From: Saccoglossus kowalevskii
Taxonomy: Eukaryota; Hemichordata; Enteropneusta; Harrimaniidae
Direction: 5' to 3'
Assembly (NCBI RefSeq): GCF_000003605.2
Contig: NW_003126386.1
Location: forward strand, 926,118 to 958,037
DNA: 31,920 nt
A program made the position numbers and the translations under genes. Under the pieces are notes generated by a model that ran no database searches, was not told where the DNA came from, and saw only the letters and a program-made list of their open reading frames with translations. Below are positions 1,531-30,700 of this stretch, in pieces (positions within the stretch are counted from its first letter, which is position 1; each line of letters opens with the position of its first letter).

Positions 1531-3560
1531 ACTATAAATTCACATTAGTGGCAAACACAATGCAGACTATTAGAAAATGTTTGTGATTGTTACTTATTTT
1601 ACGACTTATTGTTTTAAGGTTGGACGCGGCGACACGCCGTCACGTGACATAAGAATGTTTTCAAACTTTCCATAATTATTTTTGTGATGGTTTTTTTTTT
1701 TTTTGGAATTCGTGGAATTCAGAAAAAAAAGATCTAAACTAATTTTTGAATTATGAACCTCTATTCTATTATTTTGTCCATTTTACAATCATGATCCAAA
1801 ATGACAGCCGATTTAGAATGTTTAGTGATCTGAGGAAATTACAAAGTCAGTGTTGCCATTTAAACAAATTATTTGCTCTTTTTCTTTTATTTAATAAAAC
1901 TTTCATTCAGAACGATTTTCCGCATTTTTTCATGATGGCATCCATAATGTGGCTTCTTATTTTTCTTATCGTACTGGTAAAAAAAAAGTTGATTATTTGT
2001 ATCCTAATTACTAATTATTTAACATATTTTGATTAATGCTTGGTAACCACTTTATCGCATTTCTGTATAGCAGTGCGTGAAACTATGGGATTGTGTGTTT
2101 ATTGTTATTTTTTATATAACCACTGCAATAAAACCGATGGAACGAGGCTACAACATACAGGTATGACTGCGAACTCGCTCATCGCGTTGACACACGGCTA
2201 TAATAATTCCAAAGGTTACTTCTGTTTACTTACCAGAAATAGCCCAGATAAACTCGGCCAAAGTTACTTCTTTTGAATGGTACACAATAATTTCACCATT
2301 CGTACCACATTGGAAGGTATTTGAATGGTCAAAAAATGATATATTCCATAATCGTGCCGTAATTTTGCGGTATTTTACGGGGTATTTTCATTCTACCATG
2401 ATATAAGGAAATGCGAATTCCAAATATGGAATGATTACGCGCATAGGCGCCCTCTAATAATAAAAACAAACAGTTAACAAACCACTGACAGAACAGAAAC
2501 AAATAAAACATTTTTTTTCGTCAGCAATTGTTGCTCGTTGACCTAGTTGATGACGTCAACACATATAGTGCAGTCACGCCAATGAAATTTAACACACTTA
2601 CACAACATTCAAAAAATTGTAACCCAGCTGTCAACCCAATCTACCACGACATCTCTCACACAGTCTCAGAGACGCGTGTTTATTATAAAAATTATACTTT
2701 CAAGCGTCACAAGAGTTGATACCAAGGCCATGCGCATTCTCACGCCGTTCATTTACCCCATCAAGGTACATTTTGAAACAGTAGCTACTCTCGTCTGGAT
2801 TGGATTTATCGAATATTAGCATAATTATCGAATATTAGCATAATTACAGTTATGTCATAAAACACGACATACAAATAAATAAAAATCAGAAATAGCAATA
2901 AAAGCCATAAAAGTTGAAAAGACCGATCTCATTAGAATTAAAAAATAAATAAAATGTACGAGTTGAGACTTTATTTGTACTGACATGTAAGAGCCTAGTA
3001 ATTTACGCATGCGCAGATTCAACTCCTACGATATCAAAATCAACATAAAATGTCACTCCAGTTTCTGGAATATTTGACAAACTATAGCCACAACTAACAC
3101 TTACTGACTCACTGTCTCCGCCACGTAAGTATTTTTGGCCAGTAATTTTTGTTCAAAAAAAATAGTGATAGTTAATATTCATATTCTGTATATGTACTTA
3201 TCGTCTATCTTTTTAACACAATATTGGCAGTTTGTAGTTAATATTTAAATATCTTACTTGTATTGAAATATAAGCAGCATTGTGTGCTGCCTGTAAAACT
3301 ACACACTGCACGGCTGCGAGCAATATATGGTTTGACGATGTGGGATGCGACAACACAATATCATAGCCTTCTGATAATGTGTGTAAGCAGCCCGCGAACA
3401 CCTGTCAGCAAAATATTTTCCTTGGCAATTTAGGATTATAATGAATATTTTAAAATAGTGATAGTTTCGTGTTTGGGAACTTCCGTGACGACCTGTTGCT
3501 ATTCCTTGATTATTTGTTTCCGGGCATCGTTCAAAGAAAATTGATATTGTGGGCTACCCC
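1531..3560. other. Gene-free AT-rich stretch
   Basis: I see no supported gene. The short frames here lack family signatures or splice context. The stretch around 2296-2470 ends in a GGCGCCCTCTA word of the sort often found at the edges of dispersed invertebrate repeats, but no element boundaries can be fixed. A small 19-bp duplication is listed separately. Confidence 0.5.
2808..2845. repeat. 19-bp perfect direct duplication
   Basis: The word ATCGAATATTAGCATAATT occurs twice back to back (2808-2826 and 2827-2845). It is a simple tandem duplication with no associated gene. Confidence 0.9.
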
Positions 3561-3565
3561 ATTGT

Positions 3566-3686
3566 AGGGCGGTGGTCGTCGCGCAGCGCGTGTTCGAATT
3601 TCACGTAAAGAACGTATTTTACACGCGTTGTGTACATTGCTATGAGTCCCATAGCGGACAGGACGCGGCGCGACGACCATCTCCCT
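3566..3686. mobile_element. 121-bp foldback / MITE-like inverted-repeat element
   Basis: A perfect 12-bp inverted repeat, TGGTCGTCGCGC at 3573-3584 and its complement at 3668-3679, extends to about 19 bp with two mismatches (AGGG at 3566, CCCT ending at 3686). The island is much richer in G+C than its surroundings. It begins about 90 bp past the stop codon of the triple ubiquitin-like gene, so it may lie in that gene's 3' untranslated region. No clear target-site duplication is visible, so a mobile origin is inferred from shape only; a structured RNA element is the alternative. Confidence 0.45.
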
Positions 3687-3777
3687 TTAAAGTCATTAAT
3701 GTCGTTATTAGATAGCAACGTAGAATGCAAACTACATAAAATGAGTGGAATGATAAAGTTATGACTGAGAAATGTTA

Positions 3778-4716
3778 TCATTGCACTATGCAACCGAATG
3801 GAAATGTGACAGGGTTTGTTTGAGCGTTTATCTTCCCGATAGCGACCTTCCCGTTCCCCTTACGGGTGATCTCAATATTTTTACCGGACACCAACAGAAG
3901 CAGGGTGTATGGTTTGACGATATCGTAGTAGTGTAAATCATTATCATCGAGAAGTTCTCGCCCATCATACACAATGTGTTGTTCCTCTACCGGGATCCCT
4001 CGATTTTCGAAGATCTTGGCTTTCACCTCCCAAACCGTCGTGGTAGGACTGACACACAGTTGATAGCTGTATCGGGCCATCGTCTTCGCGATGATAGGAA
4101 ACCGTCTGTACGTGACATACACCACAGATGACGCCATGATGTCATAGTCCCAGAGTGTTCGATCACCGTCCAATACTTTCCCCATGTAAATAAATTCCTG
4201 CAATGCCACCGGGATACCAGTTGCTTTCTCGTAGATTTCTTTTGTTTCTAGTATCGTGTTGAGTGGTTCCACAATCAGAGAATTCGCATCATCTCGCAGA
4301 TTTCTCACAGTCAAATGCAGTGTTCCTATGTCTAACGTCCTGTATACGCACAATACGGCTTCCTTACCAATGTCATAGTCAACCAAAGTCATGTCTACAT
4401 TACCCAGTCGATGACCCCTGTAGATTAATCTCTGTTGCTCAGAGGGTAGCCCGGTGCGTGTTTCGATGATTGATTTAACACTTTTCACTGTTTCCCACTC
4501 ACTCACTTTCAAGGTGAACGATTCTCCAAACTGCGTTCTGATAAAAATCGGTATAGTTACCTGCGCCCTGGTTTGTGTCGTTGATGAGCCGAACGCATCA
4601 ACGCCCGCATTCTGGACAAGACATTCAGGAGGAACGATGATCGGGTAGCTCTCTTGTCTGAATACCCACCGTGCTTTTGGTGTACTCTCTGTCTTGACTG
4701 TTTTGGTGTGTTCCAT
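3778..4716 (-). CDS. Triple ubiquitin-like-domain protein with C-terminal CaaX-like motif
   Basis: This is an intronless frame of 312 residues. The ATG at 4716 is chosen because it has a good context (ATAATGG); an in-frame GTG lies 6 codons upstream and a stop precedes that. After a polar leader of about 50 residues come three beta-grasp ubiquitin-like domains at about 53-127, 132-205 and 207-277. Each has the ubiquitin helix and turn (VKSVKSIIETRTGLPSEQQR; TGIPVALQEFIYMGK; VWEVKAKIFENRGIPVEEQ) and the L-x-D/Y-Y-D/N-I strand. None ends in Gly-Gly, so the protein is not an obvious processed or conjugated modifier. A basic tail of about 35 residues ends in GCIVQ; CIVQ fits Cys-aliphatic-aliphatic-X with X=Gln, as for farnesylation. 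UBL3/MUB proteins are a known precedent for a prenylated ubiquitin-like fold, but they have a single domain. The three domains are strongly diverged from one another. Substrate and role are unknown. A retrogene origin is possible given the lack of introns. Confidence 0.85.
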   Translation of the reverse strand: MEHTKTVKTESTPKARWVFRQESYPIIVPPECLVQNAGVDAFGSSTTQTRAQVTIPIFIRTQFGESFTLKVSEWETVKSVKSIIETRTGLPSEQQRLIYRGHRLGNVDMTLVDYDIGKEAVLCVYRTLDIGTLHLTVRNLRDDANSLIVEPLNTILETKEIYEKATGIPVALQEFIYMGKVLDGDRTLWDYDIMASSVVYVTYRRFPIIAKTMARYSYQLCVSPTTTVWEVKAKIFENRGIPVEEQHIVYDGRELLDDNDLHYYDIVKPYTLLLLVSGKNIEITRKGNGKVAIGKINAQTNPVTFPFGCIVQ

Positions 4717-9260: not shown

Positions 9261-12200
9261 ATGGCGTCGTCAGCTCTAATCCGTATCCCTCGCCGACTTC
9301 CCCTGTTGCTGCTTGCAGACGGCGTTTTGTTGCCGGGTTCTTCCATGAGAATACCCGTGCACTCCGCCAAAAAGTAAGTACACCTCATAACTGCCATTTA
9401 ATCGTACGGTACCACTAGTAAATGTTACGTTCACGTAATTGCGTGCAATGGCTGTGTTGTTATTGCATTCACTGTACATGTACGTGGAAAGTTCAGGAAG
9501 AAACCAGAATGTACTTTAACCTCAGTAGCACCGTGACAAGATACACAATGTTACGATGATTGCGTAGCGTCAAATTTAACAACAAATAAAAACAAGATTA
9601 AACTAAAAACTACGTACAGTCAAAAATGTATTACTTAAAGGATGAATAAGACACTAATACTACTTTTTTGGTGGAGCTGTTACATGTATAATTCATCACT
9701 AATTTTCATACTTCTTTATAATTTCAATGAATTGAACTTCAAAATCTTCAATTTTTTATAGCTTTTCCAGATTGCTTTGGCAGTTTACCTCCCATCCATC
9801 GTGTATGGACTAAATTAATCTAGCTAAAAAATGGGAAAGTCTAAAATTCTCTTTGCAAGTATGAATTTGACTATCTGGCATCTTCAATGAGTCACTGATC
9901 AATCTTTCCTTGGCTTGATGTAACACATAAAAATGTTAAATTTAAGTGCTAAGGTTCCCATATGACATGCACAATGTGTGGAAAATACAAATCAATCTGC
10001 TAAAACTAAACACAGTAAATATTTCACCTTCTAATGTGCTTTCTTTGGTTTCTTGCAGCATGCATATGGTTAAGAATCATTTGTTGAAGTCCAGTAGTTT
10101 GAGTAACACTATTATTGGTGTCATTACAAAGGAGCGGGACAGTCAGGTTGTGTATACATCCCGTACATAACAGTGTCATCTGTCGGCTACAATGTCAGCA
10201 AGCAAGAACATTAGATTGATTAGATTTTCATGCACTTTCATACTTGATTATTTTGACAAATTATTTTATGTTTACTTCAGCAAGCACCAAGGAATTGCTG
10301 TATTGTCAATTAAAGTTGTATATGAGTATTTGGATAAATATTTGGATAAAAAATTAGAATTTGGTCCATGTCATATTTGGTATCTTGCCAGAAAATTGTT
10401 TGATTTTGTTTTTCATAATTTTGTCACTTTTTCAAATTTATTCTTATATTTTTTTACACTAGTATGTGTTTTGGAAGCGACTGAGCAACCAGTCCTTGGT
10501 TTGTTTAATCTTTATAATCAGTACATCAGTGGGGTATAGTTTTCATCATAATATATTTGACAACTTGCAATTGGCTTAAAGTGAACATGTGACTTGAATT
10601 AGCCAATTGTAGCATTTGTTATATATTTACAGGATGAAGATGCAAGTGGCTTGCATTCCATTGGTACAGCTGCTGTTGTTGTTCAGGTAACCGGTACTAA
10701 TTGGCCTCGACCAGCTTACACACTACTTCTGACTGGACTATGTAGATTTAAACTGGATAAATTGTTACAGCAGTCTCCTTATCCAATCGCTGCAGTTAGT
10801 CAATTGGATAGGTTCCCAGGTGATAATGAACCAGGTATGGTAATTTTCTGTTAGTGAGAGTGGAGTCAAATATTGTTGATATCTGCCAGTTTTTAGAGAT
10901 CTGCTAAAAGTCAGTTGAACATTTACAGGCAAGGTAGTGAATTAAAGCAATTGTTACCATCGTCAACAATGTTTATGTTTTTTAAGTTTTTACTATGAAT
11001 AGCACACAATGTATGATAAACAACTAGCAGAGAACAGAAGAGCGATAAGAGTATAAGAGTAGAATGCATACATGCACAGTTCTGACATTAGTGCCATCTT
11101 GGTGCAACATATTCAAGTGTATTTCATTAAATTTGGACCCAAATGAACCATTTTCAGTTGGTGATTTGACTGATAATTTTCTAGAATACAAACTGTTGTA
11201 ATTATATATAAGTTTTTAGAGATCTGCTAAAAGTCAGTTGAACATTTACAGGCAAGGTAGTGAATTAAAGCAATTGTTACCATCGTCAACAATATTTATG
11301 TTTTTTAAGTTTTTACTATGAATAGCACACAATGTATGATAAACAACTAGCAGAGAACAGAAGAGCGATAAGAGTATAAGAGTAGAATGCATACATGCAC
11401 AGTTCTGACATTAGTGCCATCTTGGTGCAACGTATTCAAGTGTATTTCATTAAATTTGGACCCAAATGAACCATTTTCAGTTGGTGATTTGACTGATAAT
11501 TTTCTAGAATACAAACTGTTGTAATTATATATAAGTTTTTAGAGATCTGCTAAAAGTCAGTTGAACATTTACAGGCAAGGTAGTGAATTAAAGCAATTGT
11601 TACCATCGTCAACAATGTTTATGTTTTTTAAGTTTTTACTATGAATAGCACACAATGTATGATAAACAACTAGCAGAGAACAGAAGAGCGATAAGAGTAT
11701 AAGAGTAGAATGCATACATGCACAGTTCTGACATTAGTGCCATCTTGGTGCAACATATTCAAGTGTATTTCATTAAATTTGGACCCAAATGAACCATTTT
11801 CAGTTGGTGATTTGACTGATAATTTTCTAGAATACAAACTGTTGTAATTATATATACCCGGTAGTACTGTAACATTTCATGTTAATGAGAAATTATAGCT
11901 CAGTGATTGTACATAATACTTCCAATGAACATTATGAAGTAGTTTACAAAGTGGTTTGTATATTACAGTGCCATCTTTGTGCAACATATTCTTGTGGACA
12001 AAATAATTAATTTCCAATCAGCTACAGATTTAGATCAGAATTTGTTTAAATAATAACACCATTTCTTTTGTGAGGAAGGTGAGAAATATTGATGTGGTGT
12101 TTATAATGTCAAAGGTCAATTTTACCATTATCACAACTTTCAATGAATTTAACCATTCCAGACATCCTGTAATTTTTATGTGTAAACCTTATTAACATTT

Positions 12201-15200
12201 GTTTAGAATGTCAATTAGAATTATGTCATGTAATTAATTGTTCATGAAGACGTATCAGACAAATGAATGAGTATTATAAAACAAAACATAAAATAGCAAT
12301 AGACGTATTTATAACTGTTTTGAATTAATTTTGCAAGAGTTTTGGTAAGAAATAATTTTCTTTGTGATTCACAACAACAAATCATTGTAAACCAACCACT
12401 GCTATGGACACTGAAATTGTGATTGTTATTCAACTATTTTCAGTCGGTGATTTCAGTGACGATGAATTGGCAGCGTTGACTGATAATTTTCTAGAACATG
12501 CTAATAAGTTGGTTGACATGTTGGATATTAGTATACCTATAGTCGCTAAATTAAAGGTAAGTATCAAGTTACAAATAGTATTCTTTGATGTAAATTATCT
12601 TATTTGTAAGATTTCTAGTTGTTACCTCAAACAAACCACCATTGAATGTTACCATCTGCTGTGTTTTTGTTGAGTAGGTTTGTGTGGCTTTAATATTATT
12701 TTGCCGCATAACTTTGCATATTCAGCAGCTAATTTGCATACATAATTTCTATTGTGTACTGTGATCTCTTCAATTTTATAAATAATGACAAACTGTGATA
12801 AATAGGTATCATATATGATTCCCCATGAATTCTAAAATCAAAGAAAGCTTAGAAAGAACTCCCATGTGCTGAGAGTATTGGAGACACATTAAATATAATT
12901 CGAAATTACTTAGCTGTAAATTAATTATGCAAATCAGAAAATTAATATGACCAGATTTGAGTGTAAAACTAATGAGGTCTGCGCAATGTAACAGAAAATC
13001 TATGTCTCCAAGTTTAATTGAAATGTGATTAGAACCAAAAAATTATGAATTATTATGCTTATTAGGGAATTAATATGAACAGATTTTTACCCCAAACTAA
13101 TTAGGTTTGTACATTTGTACTAAGTTTCATTGAAATGATATAACCCTAGAAAACCCTAAGCTTATAACACGCTGTAGGGGTGCTCGTGAAATGTACACTT
13201 ATAACACGCTGTAGGGATGCTCGTGAAATGTACACTTATAACACGCTGTAGGGGTGCTCATGAAATGTACACTTATAACACGCTGTAGGGATGCTCGTGA
13301 AATGTACACTTATAACAGCTGTAGGGGTGCTCGTGAAATGTACACTTATAACACGCTGTAGGGGTGCTCGTGAAATGTACACTTATAACACGCTGTAGGG
13401 GTGCTCGTAAAATGTACACTTTTTTTGTTTACAGAGGATGTTGGATAGTGTGCCAGCCCAAAACTTGCCAGATATATTTGCGTCAATTATCAAGACATCA
13501 TTCAATGAAAAACTGCAGGTATGCGAGGAATCCATCATTTTGTTATTGAATTTCATTCTTTTTATCAAATAAGAAAAAGATTATCTAGCATTTAATATTG
13601 CAGTCATGGCCATGTTGGTTGTAGTACTTATTTGTTGTATAATGCAGTGTATCCCCTGGGCATATTTTCACAGAAGAAGTGAGTGACAATACAGCATGGA
13701 TGTGAAGGCTCATTTATGAAAAGAACTTCAATACCCCAACACACATTAGTCAAGGCCATGGCAGTCTGTTATTATTACATATGTTGCCAAACTTTAAGAA
13801 AATTGCTTGGAAAGTCATGATTGAAGATGTTTGTATCAGTACACAAAAAAACAGTGACCTATTTTGTAAGAACTTGTTCAAAGAAAGATAGTTGCCTTGT
13901 TTATTTACTGCCGGTCATTTATACAATATTAAGTCAATATTACTTTAATATTATTTACTACCATAAAATCTGTATTAGAAGCCGCATCCCTAATATCCCA
14001 TTCTTTTTGAATAATTGTAAATGAAAAAATCACAATTTCTCATTTATGTAGATTTTCTAATAGAAACCACATCTTCTCTGTTGCATTGAACCATTTTAAG
14101 AAAAACCACAGCTTGTAATACAAATTTTACAGTAATAATCAAATATGGATAATAATTGGCAACTTAACCTTTGACCCGTAAATTAGAACTGGGCGTGCCC
14201 TGACTTATGATGAGTAAACCACCAGGGAAATTAGACTTAGAAAGATAGACAACCACATAGAGTGTTATTTATGTGAACAATTATACTATATATAATTACA
14301 GTTTGTATTCTGAAAAAACCTTTGAATCATGAAAATGAATGTTACTCGATTAAAAAAATGTCATTATTGTACCTCAGTAATGAATATTTGTCCTTCACAA
14401 AATTTTAATTAATTCTCTCTATATTCCGTTATTTTTTGTAGATTCTAGATGCAGTAGATTTAGCGGAACGGTTTAAGAAGACGCTACCGCTTCTAGTACG
14501 CCAAATAGAAGGCTTGAAATTACTCAAGCAATCAAGGAAAAATAACGATGATGAGTTTCTGGCTTTTAAAAAAACCTCAAGAAAACCATACATCATAAGA
14601 AGTTCTAAAAATTTCCATTTAGACCCAGAGGATGATGATGGAGATGGCGATGAAATGGTGGATTTAGAACAGAGACTTAAGTGAGTGATCAAATATGTGA
14701 GCAAGTTATTTTTGCTTCCTGTGTGAGAAGCGCTATAGGGAGTTGAGTTTATCCAGTCTCTATGTGTATCTGTTCCACCAATATCTCAAGAACAACTTGT
14801 CAAATTTTGATGGCATATGATACATGGGTGTTTTGGAATCAACAATACATGATGAATTGTCTGTGTATTAAATTAGCTAAATTAGCATGGTAGATTTAAT
14901 TTAAAAAAAACAAACATATTCACTCTATTAGAAGTGCAGCTCTGTCACAGTTCAAGTTGCATTTATTGTGTCTGTATAATAAAGCAAATACGGGACATGT
15001 ACCTAGCACATATGTAACTGTAAAAGTTTTCAACCATACCGTCACTGGTAGCATAGTGGTTGTTGCATTAACCTCATGATTAGTGGCATTCAAATCTTAC
15101 CTTGGGTGTTGAAAACTAAAAAGGTTTGACATCAACCATTGGTGAGTGTGCCACAGACTCAATGGGAAGGCTGAATTCACTGACTCCAGACTTTCGGGGA

Positions 15201-18200
15201 ACCTTGGTTAATGTCTGCTGGTGCTTGTGTACAACCGGGCATGTGCAATAAAATAATGATAGAAAGATACTCATACAGCCCTGTCACATAGTTCAAGTTT
15301 AAGGTACGCACCATGCTCATATTACACAGGTACACTCTTGTGCCGAGATAAGATGATTATTAAGTAACTCAGACTTGCACAGACTGAATTACAGGAGTAT
15401 GTTATTTTATTTGTTCTTTACATCCTGCATGGCAATACCATATATACCATGTACCGGGATATACAGTTATTAATGCTAGTTGTCTCACAAATTATTATTT
15501 TTCAGGGCTGCCAACTTACCTGAACATGCCAAGAAAGCTGCCCAAAAGGAATTGAAGCGACTAAAGAAAATGCCATCATCCATGCCGGATTACAGCTTAA
15601 CCAGGAATTATTTAGAGCTAATGTCTGAGTTACCATGGTCTAAGGAGACGACTGACAATCTCAGTATTGCACAGGCCAGGTGGGTAGATGGGAGAAGTTA
15701 CTGTCTGTGAAACAACTCATCAATTCAATTTAGTAATTTAGAGAATCTCAGCTGAAATATCTGTCACATCTGGGAAAAGACTTTCACTGCCTGATCGTTT
15801 TTTAATTTCGTTATAAAATAAAAATTTAATGATAAGAATTTGTACAAGTATTTATTTATTGCTTTCCTAGGCCACCGGCCCATATACAAACATATCAAAA
15901 CAATGCTTAAAGTGTAACAGGTACAAGTAGAATATGATGCTATTCTCGGTTATAGATCACACGGAATTAAATAATAATTAATTTGTTTACAATTGTTTCC
16001 TAACTTCAAATGCTCTGAACGCAAACACACAGATATTCCATAGAATATCACCATTTGTTGCTTGAACAAGCCTTTGAAATTTATCCATAGTTGATTGGAA
16101 GAATTGCATTTGCTTTGCACAAAGCAATTCGATTATTCATACAGACATTTGATTTATATATACAAAAACTCAACTTGAACATTTATATTATTTCTATGAG
16201 GATCAAGTTATAAGAGAAGAGAGTAACATTTTACCACTATAACAACCATTTTATTTTTCAAAATGTGTTCTTGCCATACATTGACAAGACAAGGTGGATG
16301 CATTGTAAACTTGCTACATCATAGTTCTCTGTCTTTGCATTAGACTGGATTTAGACGCTGATCACTATGGTTTGGACAAATTAAAGAAACGTGTTATCGA
16401 ATACCTTGCTGTACGACAAATAAAGAATTCACTGAAGGGACCCATACTGTGTTTTGTTGGACCACCTGGTGTTGGTAAAACTAGTGTTGGCAAGTCTGTA
16501 GCCAAGACTTTAGGAAGGGAGTTTCATAGGTAAGTTTTTGATCAGTTTTCATCATAGTTTAGTCTCCAAATGTGGTATTTCATCAGGTTATAATCTGAGA
16601 GGTCTACCTATATTACCAATATGTATAATATCAAATCAATCAGACTTGCGTTTTTTAACAAGAAATCAAAAATATAACTTTATATCAAAAATGACAAAAA
16701 TATTCATCAAAATTAGAGAATTGAAAATATCATCACGAAATGAACAAATCTGAGAGAGATCCACCTGTAGTACTTCTATACTAGTATATATAATATCAAA
16801 GTAATCGAAAAATATCACTTTTTACCAAACAATTTTCCATCAAATTTTAGTCAACTGCAGTCTCTAAATGTAATATTTCATAAAGGTTTAATCAAATGCA
16901 GTCTCTAAATGTAATATTCCATCAAGGTTTAATCAAATGCAGTCTCTAAATGTAATATTTCATAAAGGTTTAATCAAATTGAGTCTCTAAATGTAATATT
17001 TCATTAAGGTTTAATCAAATTGAGTCTCTAAATGTGATATTTCATTAAGGTTTAATCAAATGCAGTCTCTAAGTGTAATATTTCATCAAGGTTTAATCAA
17101 ATGCAGTCTCTAAATGTGATATTCCATCAAGGTTTAATAACTTAACATGATACGTTTATAGGATATCTCTTGGTGGTGTTTGTGATCAGAGTGATATCCG
17201 TGGTCATCGACGTACGTACATTGGTTCAATGCCTGGTCGTATTATACAAGGACTGAAGACAGTCGGAGTCAGTAATCCTGTTTTCCTGTTGGATGAAATT
17301 GATAAACTGGTCAGACATCCTTTACTTTCATTTTTCATACCAAAACCCTGATGTAATTCCATTTTTAGTCCCTGTTCGAACGAAGTCCGAAAACGGGGAC
17401 TATTAATTAGGGTTCGTTCCGTCTGTACGTACGTCCATCCGTACGTCCGGAGCTATATCTCAGACACCCATTGATGGATTTCATTCAAACTTTATATGAA
17501 GACAATACATAATGTCTTACATATGCACGTCAAGTTACTTTATGATCGGAGCAAAAATAGCCGACTGGCAGCCATTTTGGATGTAAAATTTGCTATTTCT
17601 GATACCTAAACGTGTCCGCAGCAGTTTCTCAGAAATGACTAGGCCGATTAGGATCAAAGTTGGTATGATGATCATACATATTGGATTGTAGGTGCACTTC
17701 ATTTTTTTTTCATGATTTAAACAAATATGGCCGACTGGCGGCCATCTTGTTTTTCATGGTACCCATGCTACTTTATCTTGAATGCAATGAATGTTTCTCT
17801 TTAAATTTTGTACAAAGATAGTATACCAAGAGTTACATCTGCACCATCATTATTTTTGTGATTCGATTCAATATGGATGACTGACGCCCAAATTTCATGT
17901 AAAAGTGCTAAATCGTCATTTTTACATGTCCGGAGCTGTTTCTCAGAGGTGACTAGATCGATTTAGATCAAAGCTGGTATGGTGATCATAAATATTGGGT
18001 TATAGGTGCAGGTCATTTTTTTGTGTGATTCAAACAAATATGGCTGACTGGCAGCCATTTTGTTTTTCATTGTACCCATGCTACTTTCTCTTGAATGCAA
18101 TGAACGTTTCTCTTTAAATTTTGTACAAAGATAGTATACCAAGGGATACATGCGCACCAACATTATTTTTGTGATTCGATTCAATATGGCCGGCCAATGC

Positions 18201-21200
18201 CCAATTTTCATGTAAAGTGCTAAATCGTAATTTTTACATGTCCAAAGCTGTTTCTCAGAGATGACTGGGCGGATTTGGATCAAAGTTGGTATGATGATCA
18301 TACATATTGGGTTATAGTTGCATGTCATATTTTTTCTGTAATTCAAACTAATATGGCTGACTGGTGGCCATTTTGTTTTTCATGATACCCTTGCCTACTT
18401 TCCCATGAATGCAATGAACATTTATGTTTAAATTTTGTACAAAAACAGTATACCAATAGATACATGAACATTATTTTTGTAATTTGATTCAATATGACTA
18501 CCCAATGTTCAATTCTCGTGTAAAAGCACTAAATCATAATGTTTTACAAATCCATCTCCTATTAATGGTTTCAATCTAATCTCAATGACTTCATCAGCAT
18601 CAAATTGATATGTCAGATCACAAAATTTTGGACAGGGACTGTGTCATTAACAAATGACTTGTTAAATTAAAAAAAATGATCTTATTTTTTTAGTGGCTGC
18701 AGCTTTTGATAAAATTGTTGAAAAAATATGAGAAAAGTGATGTGTGTTTATTTTGTGACTAAAGTTGACAAAGTGTTGATTCCTAACTGAATGAATGGTC
18801 ATGTGCAGCATGTGTCTGTCTGTATTGATGTATGTATCAACTTATCTAAAACTTGTATTCACATTATTGTTGATCATCATCACCATGCAATGAAAATAAA
18901 ACATTGATGTTGTTTTTTTGTTTCAGAATAAAAGTTTACAAGGTGATCCTGCAGCAGCTTTGTTGGAAGTTCTTGATCCTGAACAGAACAGCACATTTGT
19001 AGATCAGTATCCTTTTATCATCATCCATTACCATATTGTGGAACATTAGCGATCATATCTCTCCACTTCCTACAGTCATATGTTGCATCTTATCAATCAC
19101 TTATGCTACTTGCTTATCAACAATTTTTACCATATCTGAAATGATTTCTTCTGCATATTCTGTTGTGACCAGTGTTTTCATGTTTTGGTATCTACCGGGT
19201 ATTCATATTCTCACTTACTACATGTACTGTTTTCTCTCAATTAGTAGTGCACACGGTTATCTGTATGGTCAAAATAAGTCATATTTTAATTTTCCCACAT
19301 ACAATAAATACAATTTTGGGTTTATGTGCACTCCTAAACACGAAATATCACGTATTTATCCTTGACCCACTATGATAGTTACCTTAATGTGCAATTTGAT
19401 TTATCTAAAGTGTTATTCATAGCAACTGCCAACAGCATGTCTACTATACCCGCTGCATTGCTGGATAGAATGGAGGTGATCCATGTGGCTGGATACACCC
19501 AGGAAGAGAAAGTTCACATAGGTGTCAGACATCTCATACCTAAACAACTCAAAGAGCATGGATTGAATGCTGAACAGTTACAGTTTCCTGAGGATACTAT
19601 TAAAATGATCAGTAAGTATTAAGTAGTACACTGAAAGATGTCTCAACTGAACACCTCTTCCTGCGTCTTCTTTATAGCCTTGCAAAATATAAACATATTG
19701 ATAAACACCAAACTACTGTAAAATACTTGAGTGTGTATGAATTTTGGGAAATTTCAATTTAACTGAGTGGAAAAAATCTTCTAAAAAAACAATTGTGAAA
19801 ACACAAATTAGTTACATCAGCTAAAATAAGCATGCTATCTACTCTGACCCATATCATGGATTTTCCGTAGCCACTTAGGTGGTCCTGTTGTAGAGAATTT
19901 TCTTAGCCACTTAGCCTGTCTTGTTTTACAGCATTTAGCCTGGCCTGTTTTTACAACATTTTATTCTTTTGTTTTTTTCAGCATTTTGTCCTCTTTGGTA
20001 AACAACATTTTTTTAATCCCTTTAGCTGTTTGGAAAAGCAGTTATTGTTTATGATCATTCAGTGTGTTACACCTTTCTAGTTTGGTATTTTGAGGTCAAG
20101 AGGTACATTGTATCATCATTTAACCAACACTTTGTTTTCTTGTCTTCTTCTTCTTCTCCTCAGTTGCTCGCTACACTCGTGAAGCTGGGGTGAGATCACT
20201 GGAGAGGAAACTCGCTGCCGTATGCCGAGCTGTAGCTGTCAAAGTGGCTGAGAACATGACCATTAAGACAAAGAATGGGAAACAGGATCTTGAGAAAGAA
20301 AATGTAGAACCAGAGAAGGAACCTTTGTCTATAGATGAAAAGGAGTCGTTGAGTTCAGCAGCTACACTAGCCCATCCACCTGACATGCCTATTGTGATAG
20401 ATGAACATGCACTGCAGGATATTCTAGGGGTGGGTGAGATGTGTCATGTTTTCTATCTTCAGATTACTGTAAAAACTCAATAATTCTGAACACTAATAAT
20501 TATTTTGGAAAATTGGTCAAATTGGGTTGCAGGTGAACATTGTATTTTTTTCCAGCTATCAGCCATTTTTCTTTGAATCTTGGAAAAAATACGAGTGTTC
20601 ACCTGTAATCCTATATGCATGATCATGAAATCAGGGTCATATCTCTGTGAAATGATTCTGGACAAGTATCAGAATTTAACAAATTTGAGGACCAAAATGG
20701 CAGCCAGTCAGCCATATTATATCAAATGGTAAAGAAAACCAATGTGCCTATTGCAAGTCATTATACATGGTCTTGTAAAGTTTAAATGTGATCAATCTAA
20801 CATGTCTGAGAATTAAATCCGGACTGACAGAACTTAAATTAATAGTCCCTGATTGCTAACAAAGTCTGACTCTAAAAACACTATGCAACAAAATCAACAA
20901 CTGATGGTACTCAGTCTTTGATAATAATGAAATTCACTTTTAAAATAGTTGAAAGGACATATTTGATGACAGTGTCACTTTATAGCGTTATATATATAAT
21001 ATATAAAAAATGTTTTTTTTAAATGAAATTAAACGTGCATGATGACTGGGACATTTTAAATATACAGCTCCTATAATATTACCTTGTAGAGTGTAACCAT
21101 GGTAACCAGCAAAGTTACTTTGAAAATCTGAAGCAGAATTTGTTCCCCACTGCTTTCATAGAAGCACCACAGTTGCTGTTTACTGAGCCCATGTTTGTTT

Positions 21201-23814
21201 TTATGTGTGTCGTCACATTTGATTAAACCTTGATGGAATACCGGTAACACATGATGAACATGAAAATTCATTGTTGTATTGTCTTAAAGGCAATGTTTTC
21301 AAATACATGTCCCTGTTGGCTCTTCAATATCTTGTTTTGTTCTGCTTGTACAGCCACCAATGTTTGAAAATGAAACCTCAGAAAGACTTGGACAACCTGG
21401 AGTGGCAATAGGTAAGAAACATTGTACAATCTATATTGCAGATGTGATAGAACAGTCCAGTGAGGCAATGATGGGCTGTACTATATCTGTGAAAAATTTA
21501 ACTGTTATTTACACTGACTTGGAAAAATTCTTCTTTCAGGAAAGGGATTTACAGTATCTGACAGTTTGTATTAAATCTGTAATCATTATCACATGCACAA
21601 GCCAAGTTATTCCCTGTAGAACAGAAAATATGGCTTTTATACCCTATAGTCATCAGTTTTACAAATATGGAACTATTTTCATGGTGTTCCAGTTCTCAAA
21701 ATAAACAGAAATTATAGTTGTGTTTTTGCCATTAATGGAATAACATGAAGACATTTTGTTACAAACTACCTGTACATGCATTTTCAATCAAATACCTACG
21801 TGTATTGGTGAGCCACTGCTGAACACAGTGTCCAATCTTCAAAAACGTATCGTCTGTCCGTGTGATGACGCACGTCACCATGGAAACACCACAAGCCTTT
21901 GCAAGCTATGGCAGATTTCTCAGTTTTACTGCCTTCGTAAAGAATAACGCAGGAGAGTAATTAGTGTCCATGGTTCACAATATACTAATATTGTATTGAT
22001 AAAGTTGAGTAAGATAATGTTGCAAATTGTTTTACAGGTTTAGCATGGACAGAAGTAGGTGGTCAAATTATGTTTGTTGAAGCCACTAAAATGGACGGTG
22101 ATGGAAATTTGACATTGACCGGACAGTTAGGAGATGTCATGAAGGAATCTGCTAGAATTGCATTGAATTGGGTCCGGAGTAATGCTACCCGGGTAAGAAT
22201 TGACACTGGATATTCTGGTCTACTCACAACTTACTACCGGTAATATTTGTTATTTCATATATACAATAACTATAAATGTAAATTTTTGGGGTGATCACTA
22301 TAACATTTGTTTATTTCAGTGCGCTATTAAAGTATCGACTGGCACAGACCTTATGGAGAATACAGACATACATATTCATTTCCCCGCTGGTTCTATTAGT
22401 AAAGATGGTCCATCTGCTGGCGTCACTGTGGTCAGTGTACTTGTCTCATTATTTAGGTAAGGCATTTTTAATACTGCCCTCTAGTTGCAATCACAATGAA
22501 TTATGAGATGAAGATACAGCTACCGTCACCGTCCCTCAACACCTTTTTTGAGGGACGGTGCTATTGTTTGTTTTGAAACTTCAGCGATAAGTTCCTATAC
22601 AATGTTTATTACAGTGGTCGGTGTGTTCGCTCGGATACCGCAATGACTGGTGAAGTTACTCTACGTGGACTTGTGCTGCCTGTAAGTTATGTTAACTAGA
22701 TTCTTCATCCTTATAACATCAAATGGAAAATAAAAAAAAAAATTACAATATTTTTACTTTTAATTAAGTAGCATTCTAACTTATTCTTTGATTGACTAGT
22801 TGTCTGCCTGCTCCAATATCTCAAGAATCATAGAACATAATTGCTCTTTGATAAGTAGAAATCCTGTCAGCTGTTTCAATGATATCCCAAGAGCCATTTA
22901 AATTAACTTGATTTGTGGACTTGGGTGATTAGTTTACGGTGAAATTTGTGCATAATAATTACCTAATTTACATATATTAGCTGTTCAACAGGTTATATCA
23001 AGATCCACTTTAGTATTATATGTTAGTATTATACATTTCTTTATCTGATTTCACTGGGTTTAATGCTATAGGAAAATTGCCAAGTGATTGTCTCCATGGA
23101 AACAAGTTTCCTCTGGGCCAAAATATTAACAAGTTGTATTTTTAAAATTTACATAGATAGATCCTTGCTTCAGTATCATGCAATTCATTAATTAACATCC
23201 TCACGAACAAAACTAATATATAAATAACAGGTGTCTATGGGTCATATTTTGATGATTGTATGCAATTCTATTGGAGCAAATATAGTACATAAAATTTGAC
23301 GAGGTCGTATAGAATCCCTGCCATCAACTTATTTGTCAGCATTACTTTACTATGTGAGAAATGTATTTCTACTTATATAACATTTATTAATTTGAAAGGT
23401 TGGTGGAATCAAAGACAAAGTGCTAGCTGCTCATCGTACTGGTCTAAAAAGAGTTGTATTGCCAAAGAGAAATGAAAAAGACCTTCAAGAAATACCCACA
23501 AATGTCAAGGTAAAGAAAATTCAGAAATATTCTTGACTTCATGATGTATCAATATTTGTTCACACAGGACAATCATAACATGTTAAGTTCTCAGAACTCA
23601 TTAAATCAATCCTGCTCTGGTGCCAGAATGCATCATGAGCTTTTATTGTGTAAAGTTACAGTCCAGCCCTTCATATCTAATGCATTTCATTCTTTTACAG
23701 AACGACTTAGACTTTGTGTTCGTCACTAAATTAGAAGATGTTTTACAAGCTGTGTTTGAAGGTGGATATCCAGAACTGAATGCAAATGTCCCCAGCACAC
23801 AAAGCAAACTGTGA
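9261..23814 (+). CDS. LONP2: Lon protease homolog 2, peroxisomal (complete, 18 exons)
   Basis: ATP-dependent serine protease of the peroxisomal matrix, which processes and degrades matrix proteins. Exons: 9261-9373, 10059-10146, 10633-10834, 12444-12556, 13435-13518, 14442-14680, 15506-15679, 16344-16529, 17162-17309, 18927-19006, 19379-19611, 20164-20429, 21354-21411, 22038-22192, 22320-22456, 22615-22681, 23399-23509, 23701-23814. All phases join, giving 855 residues (human about 852). The N-terminus ([20 protein letters not shown]) matches human LONP2. A LON substrate-binding domain fills about 1-220, followed by an acidic linker ([12 protein letters not shown]). AAA+ motifs: Walker A GPPGVGKT about 377-384, Walker B VFLLDEID about 440-447, sensor FIATAN, arginine LLDRME, sensor-2 GVRSLER. 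The protease dyad is Ser about 745 (DGPSAG) and Lys about 786 (GGIKDK). The protein ends in SKL, a PTS1 signal. Donors of exon 2 (GTTGTG) and exon 9 (GTCAGA) are weak but forced by the protein. No frame damage is seen. Confidence 0.97.
11158..11186 (+). pseudogene. Fossil of LONP2 exon 4 start, copy 1 of 3
   Basis: TTTTCAG followed by TTGGTGATTT and then GACTGATAATTTTCTAGAA matches the real exon 4 (12444-12453 and 12478-12496), except for one substitution and the loss of 24 bases, an in-frame eight-codon gap. After TAGAA the match ends. If spliced in, the frame would reach a stop within a few codons, so this is a non-functional exon relic. It is repeated at 11481-11509 and 11804-11832. Confidence 0.8.
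11481..11509 (+). pseudogene. Fossil of LONP2 exon 4 start, copy 2 of 3
   Basis: This is the second copy of the exon 4 relic, carried by the middle 323-bp unit; the exon-matching part is identical to that of the first unit. Confidence 0.8.
11804..11832 (+). pseudogene. Fossil of LONP2 exon 4 start, copy 3 of 3
   Basis: This is the third copy of the exon 4 relic, carried by the last 323-bp unit, about 610 bp upstream of the genuine exon 4 acceptor. Confidence 0.8.
11872..11952 (+). repeat. Dispersed repeat, copy 2
   Basis: Diverged relative of 8889-8966: TTTCATGTTAA, GAAATTATA, TTCCAATGAACA and GTTTAC occur in the same order, with a short insertion. It directly follows the 323-bp triplication. 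Confidence 0.6.
12921..13150 (+). repeat. Two diverged copies of a dispersed element (LONP2 intron 4)
   Basis: Two successive stretches share AATTATGC, AATTAATATGA.CAGATTT, AAACTAAT.AGGT and AAGTTT.ATTGAAATG in the same order, beginning near 12925 and 13053. Similar words occur on the opposite strand near 22900-22990 in intron 16 (ACTAATC and TTATGCACAAATTTCAC), suggesting a family spread over the genome. Borders are unclear. Confidence 0.5.
13161..13419 (+). repeat. 37-bp tandem array, seven units, next to the exon 5 acceptor
   Basis: CTTATAACACGCTGTAGGGG and its variants start at 13161, 13198, 13235, 13272, 13309, 13345 and 13382. Spacing is 37 bp except one 36-bp unit. The last unit runs straight into the polypyrimidine tract and AG of exon 5 (starts 13435), so only about 15 bp of non-repeat DNA separate array and exon. 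Confidence 0.95.
15041..15262 (+). mobile_element. tRNA-derived SINE remnant (LONP2 intron 6)
   Basis: An A-box-like TAGCATAGTGG at about 15049 and a B-box-like GCATTCAAATC at about 15086 are spaced as in a tRNA, with CTCATGA in the anticodon-loop position. The head therefore resembles a decayed tRNA with a CAT anticodon. A body of about 130 bp follows and ends in an A-rich tail, AATAAAATAATGATAG. No target duplication is obvious, and the tRNA stems are too degraded for a working tRNA gene. Confidence 0.65.
16850..17140 (+). repeat. 41-bp tandem array, seven units, next to the exon 9 acceptor
   Basis: TCTCTAAATGTAATATTTCA and variants start at 16861, 16902, 16943, 16984, 17025, 17066 and 17107, each 41 bp apart. 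A diverged single copy (TAGTCTCCAAATGTGGTATT) sits near 16560 in the same intron. The array stops about 20 bp before exon 9 (17162). Confidence 0.95.
17367..18640 (+). mobile_element. 1.27-kb non-coding element with short inverted ends (LONP2 intron 9)
   Basis: The left end AGTCCCTGTTCGAA and the complement of the right end AGTCCCTGTCCAAAA match at 12 of about 15 positions. The first 33 bp also form an imperfect hairpin (GTCCCTGTT against AACGGGGAC). The interior has no coding capacity and contains three tandem blocks of about 313 bp with words such as ATATGGC.GACTGGC.GCCAT. The family is not recognised; a non-autonomous DNA element is likely. A diverged inverted relative lies at 20500-20870. 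Confidence 0.6.
17600..18560 (+). repeat. About 313-bp internal triplication
   Basis: TTTCTCAGA followed by a GATGACT-like word and GATCAAAG.TGGTATG recurs at 17625, 17939 and 18251 (spacings 314 and 312). Copies also share ACCCATGCTACTTT and GTACAAAGATAGTATACCAA. Divergence is clearly higher than in the 323-bp triplication of intron 3, so this amplification is older. Confidence 0.85.
19865..20010 (+). repeat. Degenerate short tandem repeat (LONP2 intron 11)
   Basis: Phrases of the form AGCCACTTAG.CTGTCTTGTT, AGCATTTAGCCTGGCCTGTT and CAGCATTTTGTCCT recur about every 30-40 bp. The array is decayed and its unit cannot be stated exactly. Confidence 0.45.
20500..20870 (-). mobile_element. Inverted, diverged relative of the intron 9 element (LONP2 intron 12)
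   Basis: Read on the minus strand, the segment shows GGGACTATTAATTTAAGTTC, then TCCGGA, TCTCAGACATG, then AATATGGCTGACTGGC.GCCATTTTGG, in the same order as 17367-17640. The two are therefore copies of one dispersed family in opposite orientation within the same gene. The copy is partial and lacks the internal triplication. Confidence 0.65.
22527..22560 (+). other. Perfect 13-bp hairpin inside the 158-bp intron 15 of LONP2
   Basis: CACCGTCCCTCAA at 22527-22539 is perfectly complementary to TTGAGGGACGGTG at 22548-22560, with an 8-base loop ending in a T run. The stem is GC-rich in AT-rich surroundings. It lies 70 bp after the exon 15 donor and 54 bp before the exon 16 acceptor. It could fold in the pre-mRNA, or be the relic of a small inverted-repeat insertion. 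Confidence 0.85.
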
Positions 23815-24758: not shown

Positions 24759-27700
24759 CTATTTATGCTGGTTATCATGATTGTATTTATCTGAAACTCT
24801 ATTATGAAAACGTTTACCGAATGCTACATAGTCTTTTGGATTAAACCAACCCTGCAAAAAAAAAAAAGAAAGAATAAACATTACCTTAAGGCTAAAAAAA
24901 AATGTTTTTTTCTGGTCAAGAGAGAGTGGTGACATGCCTTACATTTCTCATTAATTATTAAAACATGCATACAAACAAATTTAATCTTGTCTTTCAGGGG
25001 TTAAAGTTGATTTCAATTACTGTGTAAAAATCACACTTTTGAGTTGTTTCTTTTTTTTCTCTTACAAACTTTTGTACTATTGTAGAAAACTAAAAGTCTC
25101 CTAAAATCAGTGTTCCAAATTTGGTACTGAGCAAATTTATACTGTGTACTTTATTTGGTCTATAAAAACCAAAATCGTAATTGTTGTAAACTGAATCGCT
25201 AATTACTTATTTTCATCAGAGAAACATCTCTGTAATTTATGTATATACCGGTAAGATTCGAACATAAAAATATCATACAATAAGGGTTCTTATACCTGAG
25301 GTACAATTATATGAAGCCAGTCTTCTTTCTGGTCTTTGAAAACTTCTGGTAATTCTGAGATGCAAGGAGTCTGGGCTAACTCTAGCAACCTGTCTCGACT
25401 ATATGTGATGCGCCTCTCACTGTAGTCTGGAATGTCCTTTACATTCAACAAACTCTGTAAAATTGAAATTGTGTCATCACTACAGAAATATATTTAACAA
25501 AATGCAGAACACTTACTGATAATAAATCCAGTTGTCACAATACTGTTATAACTGATTAGTAAGGGTTGGAGCAACTTCACTGGGTTTTAAAGTTTATGAA
25601 TTTGGTAGTGAAACAAAAAGTTCTACTGTTATTTTACATGATCACATGGATTTAATTTAAGTTAGCGATTTCAGATTTTCAATGAAAATAGCAAGTGTTG
25701 TGTTTTTCATACCTTGTCATCTGGACATGTATGTTCAGAGGCGGCGGCCATCTTGGATGAAATGGAAGACTGAACCAACTGCCTTTGCAACTCATCACCT
25801 ACAAACAATGAATGATGTGTACATATTTTAGCACAGATAGCAGTGACAATATTTAATGTCAAGACTAGTCATGATTAATTCTTTTTCATTATTAGTGATC
25901 ATGAGAACATGCATTGCATCAATGCTTTATTTGATATTAAAGACTGATTATTAGAGATTTAGCTTAGCATATCACACAACAGTATAGCTCTAACTCTAGC
26001 TAATTGTGTAACCTCCAACTCTAGTTGATAAGCTAATTGTGTAACCTCTAACTCTAGCCATTATGCTAATTGTGTAACCTCTAACTCTAGCCGATAAGCT
26101 AATTGTGTAACCTCTAACTCTAGCCGATAAGCTAATTGTGTAACCTCTAACTCTAGCCGATAAGCTAATTGTGTAACCTCTAACTCTAGCCATTATGCTA
26201 ATTGTGTAACTTCTAACTCTAGCCATTATGCTAATTGTGTAACCTCTAACTCTAGCCATTATGCTAATTGTGTAACCTCTAACTCTAGCCATTATGCTAA
26301 TTGTGTAACTTCTAACTAACTCTAGCCATTATGCTAATTGTGTAACCTCTAACTCTAGCCATTATGCTAATTGTGTAACCTCTAACTCTAGCCGATAAGC
26401 TAATTGTGTAACCTCTAACTCTAGCCGATAAGCTAATTGTGTAACCTCTAACTCTAGCCGTTATGCTAATTGTGTAACCTCTAACTCTAGCAGATAAGCT
26501 AATTGTGTAACCTCTAACTCTAGCCGATAAGCTAATTGTGTAACCTCTAACTCTAGCCATTATGCTAATTGTGTAACCTCTAACTCTAGCCATTATGCTA
26601 ATTGTGTAACTTCTAACTCTAGCCGTTATGCTAATTGTGTAACCTCTAACTCTAGCCATTATGCTAATTGTGTAACCTCTAACTCTAGCCGTTATGCTAA
26701 TTCTATGACCTCTTAGTCTTCGCTGGTTCCCAGCATCCATTGCGAATTGCAAGTAGGGCGCAGGTAACTAGTGTTTGCCAAATTGTTCCACTGGGCCGGG
26801 ATTCCGGTCCAAAGGCATGTGACGGTAACCCGCCAGCCTCTAACTCTCGCTGCTATGTTAATTGTGTCACCTCTTACTCAAGCCTTAATGCTAATTATGT
26901 GACCTCCAACTCTCACTGTGATACTAATTATATGATCTCTTACTCTAACTGTTATGAAATTACAGTATTATATTCACAACAAAATTGAAGCCTTTTACAT
27001 TGACACTTCTGACGTCCCAAGATAATAATAATAACTTTATGACACTACTATGCCATCAAAGGGTGCAGTATGGTAAATAAAATAAAATACAAATAATAAA
27101 AAATACAGCAAGTAAACTATAATAAGATGCTAAAAGCTTAATAGGAAAAAATTTAATGTTAATTACAGGATTCTCCCAATGTAGAGGCGATAGCTTTGAT
27201 ATACATATACTTGATTTCTGTTTTGCCTAATTTAGAAACTTTGCTAAGGGTATAAAAAGCCTTATCAGCACGTCATTATTTTAATGAAATTGTCTGTTTT
27301 ATTTAGTTTATTGTTAATTCCTATTTCTTGAAACAGCTCTCCTCTTTCTTTATCGAGAAATTCACAATCTAGGATAAAATGTTGTTCGTCCTCAACTGAA
27401 TTTGACATTTTTTTCAAAATCACTCTTCTGCAGGAAGTTGTAGTCACTAAGCCTAAATTTACTCACAATTTTCCGAAGGCTGAAGTTTGTTATTTCGGTT
27501 AGGTATGTTTCTATTTTCAAATATGATTTAAACAATTTATATATTCTCATTTTATTGTCATATTTATCATTTTTACTGTGAGGAAAATTTAAGCTTTCTT
27601 TTCATAATCTTTTGTGAGTTTTATTTTAACAACATTGATATTGAGATGTGCAAGTAATAGTGAAATCTAGTGGAAACAAACGTCATGAAAAACAAAAGTA

Positions 27701-30700
27701 TTTTCAAAAAACAAAAATAAAATTTAAACATACTTGTACTAGCATTTGTGATAGCAAATAATTGTCTTCTAGTAGCAGCATATTTGTCAGCACTAAGAGT
27801 AACTTTGTGCACATATGGACAGGTGGTTGGACCATATGGCTCTCTGATAACAGCAATCGCCTTGCCCTGTACAACTTGTTTCTCGGCTAAAATGAATTAA
27901 ATAAAATAATGCAAGTGAAATATTGTATGAACATGTACACAAGACAGAGCACGTTACCCCCCCCCCCCCCATGACCAATATCACACCTACCTACATGTAA
28001 CTCATAATTTCAATTTTTCATAAATCAAGGTGGTTTTTGATCACTGAAAATGTGATGGAAGAGTGGGAGGAAAACCAACTGTATTACAAATACTTTAATA
28101 ATCAAGATAACAGCATGAATTTCATCATCTTTACCAATCAAGGTTTGTTTATTCAGTAGTGTATGTTTAAGACCTACTGTGCTATGCAACTCTGATTTGC
28201 TGCATGATTTAGATTTAGATTGCGTCTGCGCCTGCAATCAGATCTATACAAAACCTCTTGGTAGAACATCATAATATTCCACTCCATGTGAGATCATTTA
28301 GTACCATCCACAAAGGTCATTTATAAAATTTGTGAAATGAAAAATTAAGCTTATGGCCCTTTAATGATTTAAAACTTTGAATAATCCCAAATGATGTGTC
28401 AACAAACCTATTTTCTTTTTCAAACACCTTCGTCCTCTGACACCACCATCCAGTTGGACGACGTCCATGTCATTTTCTTGCATTATCGTTTTTTGATCAC
28501 AAACAGCCTTGTTATCGCCAGTCGACAAATTATCTTGAATGTCTTGATTGTTAGTGAGGTCACTGAAATTTTGTTGGACTACATTGTCTTGATGACAGAT
28601 ACTGTCATTGCTATTCAGTAGCAATGCATCCTGCTGGCTGAAGTAGTCATCATCGTCGTTGTCGTCAAGTGGCATACTTGCGTACTTTCTAAGGTACTCT
28701 TCCAGCTCCAACTCATCACTTTTTGTAAATATTTCTGCACCAAATGAGTCCAACGCATCAGTGGGTATCCTGTCACCAGTTTCAGATTCGTCAATGCATG
28801 AATTAACAGATGTGATTGGAGGGTTTATGTTTATATTTTGTGTTTGTAATGCTAGGCTATCCATAGGAGAAATTGTCGGTTTAACATCAAGACAATCTCC
28901 AGCACCCCTCATATGAATTGTATTTGCTTCTGCACTATTTTGAAAATGATTATTTTCCAATCGTATTTTACTTTGGCATGGTTCAGCTTTCCATAAACTC
29001 TGTTCTACAAAATCAACTGAATGTTCTTTGTTTTCATTTCCAGTACAGTCGTCTTCTTCAACAATGTCCATTGGATATTCTGTAAAAACTGTCACATTGC
29101 CCTCGATATTGTTTTCTACAGAAATGTCCATATCGCATTCTGTATTGATCGTTACATTACCTTCAACCCAGACTTCCTCCCCTGTATGAACAGTGCTCAC
29201 GTCAGTGACTTGCGGGTCATGTTTTTGCATATCACAAATAGTTTTTTCTATTATTGTATTTGAGAGGTTCCTTTGTTTTGTTTTGTTTGCTGCAGAGTCT
29301 ATATTTCTCGTTTCAATCGCCAAACTATCACTTGCACCAACCATTTCAACTGGCGTTCTGTGTTTCTTCTTTGTAATATTAGGAATATTTTTGTCATGGT
29401 CTGTTGCTATCCCAGTTTCTACTGTCCATTCTTCATTAATAGTGTTCAGAATCTTAGATCCTGAAAGCAAAAGAAATGTGTTAAAATATGATATAATGTT
29501 AAAATTGTAATTGTCTAGTTCCAGTCTGAACATGTCAAATTAAAACTTTTTTTTTCGCTATTTTAGCTGAAGGGATGATTCAGTGGAAATAAAATCTAGC
29601 GAATACACTTTTTTTTCAGATTTTACATACCTACAACTCATCACAAATCAGTAAAAATTAACATACAAAACTGCCAAAAAAATTTGATTTAGCGAAAATT
29701 GATTCAAGCTAAAATATATGTATTTTACAGTACATAGTCTGACCAATGTGGGGGAAAAGTTACACAAGCAATGTACCGAACTACAATGAAATCAACAGTG
29801 TCAAATTGTGATTTACGAAATCTTTGTCATGGAGTCAGTCATTAACTGAATAAGTAAGACACCAAGGTATGAACATCACTGTCTACATATCAAAGATCTG
29901 TTATAAAACTAGAGGGTATCAAATTATTAATGTTCACTGTATGGCTGCCTTTATTTTCTATACCCGAGACTGTCTTTTTTGGTTTCTTTTTCTTATTCTT
30001 CTTGGGGATGACTATTTTCTCTTCATCCATCAATGGATTTGAACTGAGGAGGGAAGATTGTGCTTTCCACACACGAGGAGCAGCAAAGTCATCCATTTCA
30101 TCACTCTGCCAACAAATAAATAGCAAGCATTATCCTGCTGATCTATTAAGGTTTACAGACACATTAACATGTCTTTATTTTTTGAGCAATGTACATCATG
30201 TTTACTGCACATTTGAACACCTTTTTTGTTGACATCAGATGCAGAAACGCTATATCGTGTGATGGAGATAGAATCCAGTCACTGAATGCAAACGTTCGCA
30301 CAGCGAGAAACATTTTTCACCACCATTTTTTACTGTTATCTCTCATTAAACTATCATAATGGTATTTCTACAAGCAGTAAAAAGATGTATGCTAATAAGG
30401 TTACTGGAAAGTATACACTCAGGCAGTATAGAAACACATTGACCTCTGCTACGCATTGGTTGATACCTAATATTATGGCACAGGTGTTCCTACATGTGGG
30501 TTGCATTTTGACTGTTGTGGTTGTTGTGTTGACTTGTGTTCAAGTGATCAATGTTGAAAATAATTATAGTAAACTTAGTACGTTTTCACTTATCTTCCAC
30601 TACTAATCTTTCCTATGGCCCTCAAAAAAAGAACACACACACAACTAAACTAATGAAAATGACCAGTTATATACAAATACAATCAGGCTTAATAGTTTCT

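Follow-up and report, generated by a model that had tools for sequence, protein, structure and literature searches.

Tandem arrays of ubiquitin-like domains (UBLs), as in ISG15, FAT10 and OASL, and prenylated UBLs, as in UBL3/MUB, are already known, each apart from the other. UBL3 has one UBL and FAT10 has two, OAS1 p46 is devoid of UBLs, and to our knowledge none of ISG15, FAT10 and OASL is known as a prenylated tandem. UBL3/MUB proteins are described as prenylated and membrane-bound, and a disulfide-based modification of proteins through two C-terminal cysteines has been reported for UBL3 (PMC6158211). MUBs are described as prenylated UBLs that recruit and inhibit E2 enzymes at the plasma membrane via backside binding, the inhibition requiring a Pro-Phe lap-bar motif in the alpha2-beta5 loop (PMC4996978). 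PMC8764230 presents mammalian OASL as lacking a conjugation motif and describes the chicken OASL tandem (7sbi), and PMC7612834 states that the CaaX box of OAS1 p46 decides its membrane targeting. In the open-licence literature, outside which most subscription journals lie, no title or abstract opening on a prenylated tandem-UBL protein was found among the matches listed.

The window, that is, the whole stretch of 31,920 nucleotides analysed here, carries a gene for a protein (P0001) with three UBLs and a CaaX-type end, the parts of which are listed in Table 1. The original prediction of an intact frame was exact in coordinates, strand and reading: the protein has 312 residues, runs from ATG to TGA and ends in CIVQ. 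The stop-free frame at this place comprises 325 codons; the longest simulated stop-free frame was 282 codons with the composition of the ORF region (n=200, 31,920 bases) and 244 codons with the composition of the window (a separate n=200, 31,920 bases). The short frame that overlaps the start codon is a possible reinitiation control of the gene.

Table 1. Parts of the window gene (positions in the window)
Feature	Position	Strand	Remarks
Single-exon coding region	3778..4716	minus	312 codons + stop; ATG at 4716, stop 3780-3778
N-terminal 54 residues	4555..4716	minus	no family match
UBL domain 1, residues 55-131	4324..4554	minus	lowest paralogue conservation of the three UBLs (26%)
UBL domain 2, residues 133-205	4102..4320	minus	Ile44-like patch L-I-Y-T
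UBL domain 3, residues 206-278	3883..4101	minus	highest paralogue conservation among the UBLs (47%)
Tail, linker part, residues 279-308	3793..3882	minus	
CaaX-type terminus CIVQ, residues 309-312	3781..3792	minus	
Upstream short frame, 7 codons	4716..4739	minus	stop overlapping main start (TAATG)

The Pfam profile search of the protein bears out the three successive ubiquitin-like domains that had been predicted, giving three stretches of PF00240 (ubiquitin; 156 bits, cut-off 25.4, E 1.9e-46), as well as weaker matches to other ubiquitin-fold models (Rad60-SLD, 86 bits; TBK1_ULD, 32; Ubiquitin_2, 27). Among the best 60 of 340 matches in the PDB, linear ubiquitin chains rank top, covering residues 55-276 with few short gaps; each domain searched singly matches ubiquitin chains best, and domain 3 with the tail also matches the chicken OASL tandem 7sbi (E 3.3e-10). 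The domains start at residues 55, 133 and 206, near the 76-residue spacing of ubiquitin, and this, together with the linear-chain matches, suggests that the ancestor of the gene was likely of the polyubiquitin type. The domains are 30/76, 25/74 and 26/76 identical to ubiquitin and 27/77, 27/80 and 20/78 identical to one another. Residue 72, Arg in ubiquitin, is Thr in domain 1, Arg in domain 2 and Ser in domain 3, and the predicted lack of Gly-Gly extends to the whole protein, in which GG does not occur once.

Thus, the window protein resembles the products of polyubiquitin genes (UBB, UBC, UBI4) in its head-to-tail ubiquitin-fold units, spaced by about 76 residues in one coding frame, but differs in that its units are only 34-39% identical to ubiquitin, lack Gly-Gly and are followed by a tail with a CaaX-type end; near-identical repeats joined at Gly-Gly are not found in it. 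With ISG15, FAT10 and OASL it shares diverged tandem UBLs, three of them in contrast to the two of ISG15 and OASL. ISG15 ends in LRLRGG, whereas the window protein combines three UBLs with no GG, in place of the two UBLs and terminal Gly-Gly motif of ISG15 and FAT10. OASL has an OAS-like region, whereas only 54 residues precede the UBLs here, and the 10 Pfam matches of the protein at E 1 include no OAS family, although an upstream exon is possible. UBL3/MUB proteins share with it a ubiquitin fold and a CaaX box, but they have a single ubiquitin-fold domain in place of three PF00240 stretches, and UBL3 has two C-terminal cysteines where the window protein has one. OAS1 p46 is a parallel for the CaaX-type end only. 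At the level of sequence, the features tested exclude UBL3/MUB, ISG15 and OASL as the identity of the window protein.

A search of the source genome (572 Mb, 4830 contigs) with the window protein scored nine candidates, and the four matches at E <=0.001 were the protein itself, a paralogue (L002, E 6.1e-39) on a separate contig and two in one frame of 666 codons. The paralogue encodes a protein (P0002) of 284 residues from the first Met, which ends in CSIM and is identical to the window protein at 91/251 positions (36%); similarity includes the N-terminal region, where VQNAGVDAFG resembles VQNNSSVGTGAFG. Its single frame holds three repeats, but the first is eroded (12/76 identical to ubiquitin) and PF00240 matches just two stretches, so the complete triple is not strictly retained. 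With the paralogue as query, six candidates yielded four matches at E 0.01, all of them in these three genes. With the PF00240 profile, at least 19 matches were obtained among 40 candidates on 12 contigs, and the contigs found with two or more were three, those of the window gene, the paralogue and the 666-codon gene. The gene counts from these searches must be read as minima; their matches include no canonical polyubiquitin gene, which indicates that the genome search is incomplete. The 666-codon frame (L003, 529-2526, contig C1644) encodes a further unusual multi-UBL protein, with six PF00240 stretches, a weak coiled-coil match ahead of them (CCDC93_CC, below cut-off) and the end VLYLK without Gly-Gly or CaaX. 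The same genome also contains a frame that we take to be parkin-like. This frame, a UBL3-like exon and the Lon-type protease exons described below suggest a genome of animal type. A hemocyanin match (PF14830), sought as a sign of a molluscan host, was absent, and the controls gave none either.

The genomes of viruses were considered as a source of the family, and this origin was rejected, as no relative was confirmed in viral contigs, where the window protein gave no pattern match and a search by alignment gave 73, none of them confirmed; in a genome-contig collection, none of 100 pattern matches was confirmed. A 121-bp element with inverted ends, 85% identical between the window (3570-3690) and the paralogue locus (2550-2670), lies 3' of one family gene and 5' of the other and looks like a MITE.

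Both family members found, in one genome, have CaaX-type ends with Cys at -4, an aliphatic a2 and an accepted X (CIVQ, just as predicted, and CSIM). According to PMC11152559, human FTase fully modifies CSIM, the sequence of prelamin A, in a yeast assay, CASQ and CAHQ are likewise modified by the human enzyme, and CaaS/Q ends are not prenylated by human GGTase-I; CIVQ itself was not found in that paper. Since FTase accepts CASQ and CAHQ and GGTase-I does not accept CaaS/Q ends, CIVQ points by analogy to a farnesyl rather than a geranylgeranyl signal. The tail, predicted to be basic, is so in the window gene (5 K/R against 1 D/E in 34 residues) but hardly in the paralogue (6 against 5 in the stretch counted).

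It might be argued that these ends are coincidental and that the protein is a soluble, non-conjugatable tandem of UBLs, comparable in its action to the UBL part of mammalian OASL. Strict CaaX-like ends (Cys, any residue, V/I/L, accepted X) do occur by chance in 35/4661 frames, and Cys at -4 in 240/4661, a count that covers frames of at least 10 codons from the window plus 12 non-overlapping loci and excludes the ends of the two family genes. Outside the Cys, the two tails are poorly conserved (29% identical over 28 aligned residues, a short and gap-fitted alignment). The window gene was moreover noticed partly for its end, so that the fair test is the end of the paralogue; there, a chance CaaX-type end has a probability near 0.01, yet this paralogue, saturated at third codon positions, ends in the FTase-tested CSIM. 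Such a soluble protein is therefore rather doubtful.

Conservation of surfaces differs among the domains. In the alignment, ubiquitin positions 8/44/68/70 of domain 2 are LIYT in the window protein and LIYV in the paralogue, and Lys at position 48 is present in both; on this alignment domain 2 retains an Ile44-like patch in both copies. In domain 1, Ile44 alone of the four is kept in the window protein and none in the paralogue, and in domain 3 the positions read MVLL and KVHI. The patch in domain 2 would suit a regulator of the MUB/UBL3 type with extra UBLs, prenylated and both tethering and inhibiting an E2 by backside binding, as MUBs do (PMC4996978). However, a Pro-Phe lap-bar was not seen in the alpha2-beta5 loops of domains 1-3 when the alignment was read by eye. 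PF13881 (Rad60-SLD_2), which we take to be the UBL3 model, also stays below its cut-off of 23 in the window protein (12.7 bits) and the paralogue (20.7 bits), and a separate exon elsewhere in the genome exceeds it (28.9 bits, with one stop inside the match, exon-edge-like) and is presumably UBL3. A regulator of this type is thus unlikely.

The description of the gene as intronless applies to its coding region alone: the paralogue shows signs of a possible 5' UTR intron, and donor-like sites lie inside the window coding region. Upstream of the paralogue there are a TATA box (TATATAAAGG), a donor at 3553 and, shortly before the ATG, an acceptor at 2244. Such signals are compatible with an intron in the 5' UTR, as carried by animal polyubiquitin genes; upstream of the window gene, no TATA/donor/acceptor set as clear as this was found. 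With tabulated splice-site scores, four GT sites inside the window coding region score >=8 (4669, 4560, 4506 and 4367), which exceeds the background of 0.53 per kb, and these sites argue mildly against a single-exon gene. A larger mRNA is conceivable in which this frame forms a single exon and the tail results from read-through into an intron: a candidate donor (CCC|GTAAGG at 3863, score 6.8) lies a little past domain 3, and an open tail of 29 codons has a chance probability of about 0.22, so that the open tail by itself is no evidence. Donors scoring >=6.8, however, occur once per kb on the strand of the gene, the four stronger sites map to the N-terminal region or domain 1 and not to the tail, none of the 10 best-scoring donor sites in the paralogue coding region reaches 8, and both paralogues remain open to a CaaX-type end through differing tails. 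This makes a larger mRNA quite unlikely.

Motifs that might hint at an immune role (ISRE-like) were absent upstream, in 7 kb of the window and 1.6 kb of the paralogue locus. The window also contains, on the plus strand, exons of a Lon-type protease (10603-22457; LON substrate-binding, lid and Lon_C domains), perhaps of the peroxisomal LONP2 type; on the minus strand, an open frame of 390 codons (28361-29533), acidic by eye and unmatched by any Pfam family at E 1; and a 33-bp tandem repeat of 21.5 copies (25999-26713), with two open minus-strand stretches encoding a repeated RVRGYTIS-like peptide.

The two paralogues have been under long constraint at the protein level. Over 219 aligned UBL codons, protein identity is 38%, and codon-position identity is 55% at first, 63% at second and 26% at third positions; four-fold sites are identical at 9/38, about chance level, dN is 0.62, and dS is saturated and not computable. 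It is the saturation of third positions alongside conserved first and second ones that indicates this constraint. By domain, protein identity is 26% (domain 1), 41% (domain 2) and 47% (domain 3). The prediction that the gene is no recent polyubiquitin duplicate is supported. A recent retrocopy is rejected on the codon-position identities. A decaying polyubiquitin retrocopy, the alternative raised in the original prediction, could explain an intronless coding region far diverged from ubiquitin, but is disfavoured by the same constraint, by frames of 312 and 284 codons that are both intact after third-position saturation and by the pairing of domains 2 and 3 between paralogues in the domain tree, and is very improbable. 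In this tree (14 rows; 9 of 11 inner branches open), domain 3 joins domain 3 (97/96, starred by the tool) and domain 2 joins domain 2 (91/85, just below the star), and the first domains are unpaired; according to a warning of the program, the domain 2 group and one domain of the 666-codon frame may have been joined as long branches. From these pairings, the arrangement of domains most likely predates the split of the paralogues, as best supported for domain 3. Cleavage of a pro-form after Gly-Gly, followed by conjugation, is barely credible: the paralogue does hold two GG, in SGGKGG after domain 3, but the window protein has none and an LRLRGG-type context is absent from both. Accordingly, the claim that the protein cannot be conjugated is firm for the window gene, but not for the paralogue.

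The reading we prefer, with a rough probability of 0.55, is that the window gene encodes a non-conjugatable, polyubiquitin-derived and prenylated adaptor or decoy that presents UBLs at a membrane. A polyubiquitin-type ancestor would have given rise to a fixed chain of three diverged UBLs, and with the loss of its Gly-Gly tails this chain would escape both cleavage into monomers and conjugation. Through a farnesylated Cys in its CaaX box the chain might be kept at the cytosolic side of a membrane, and there its UBLs, chiefly domain 2 with the Ile44-like patch, may bind ubiquitin-binding proteins or E2 enzymes non-covalently, so that the membrane-held chain would act as an adaptor or a decoy. 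More tentatively, and with less than even odds, the two genes may represent an undescribed family of genome-encoded, lipid-anchored mimics of linear ubiquitin chains, lacking the Gly-Gly sites at which DUBs cleave, which serve as a permanent membrane platform or sink for chain readers and evolved independently of both UBL3 and ISG15/OASL. If true, this constrained pair would join the tandem and the prenylated UBLs, a cleavable ubiquitin precursor having evolved into a fixed, membrane-tied chain mimic, and it would bear on whether non-covalent mimics control the readers of ubiquitin chains at membranes.
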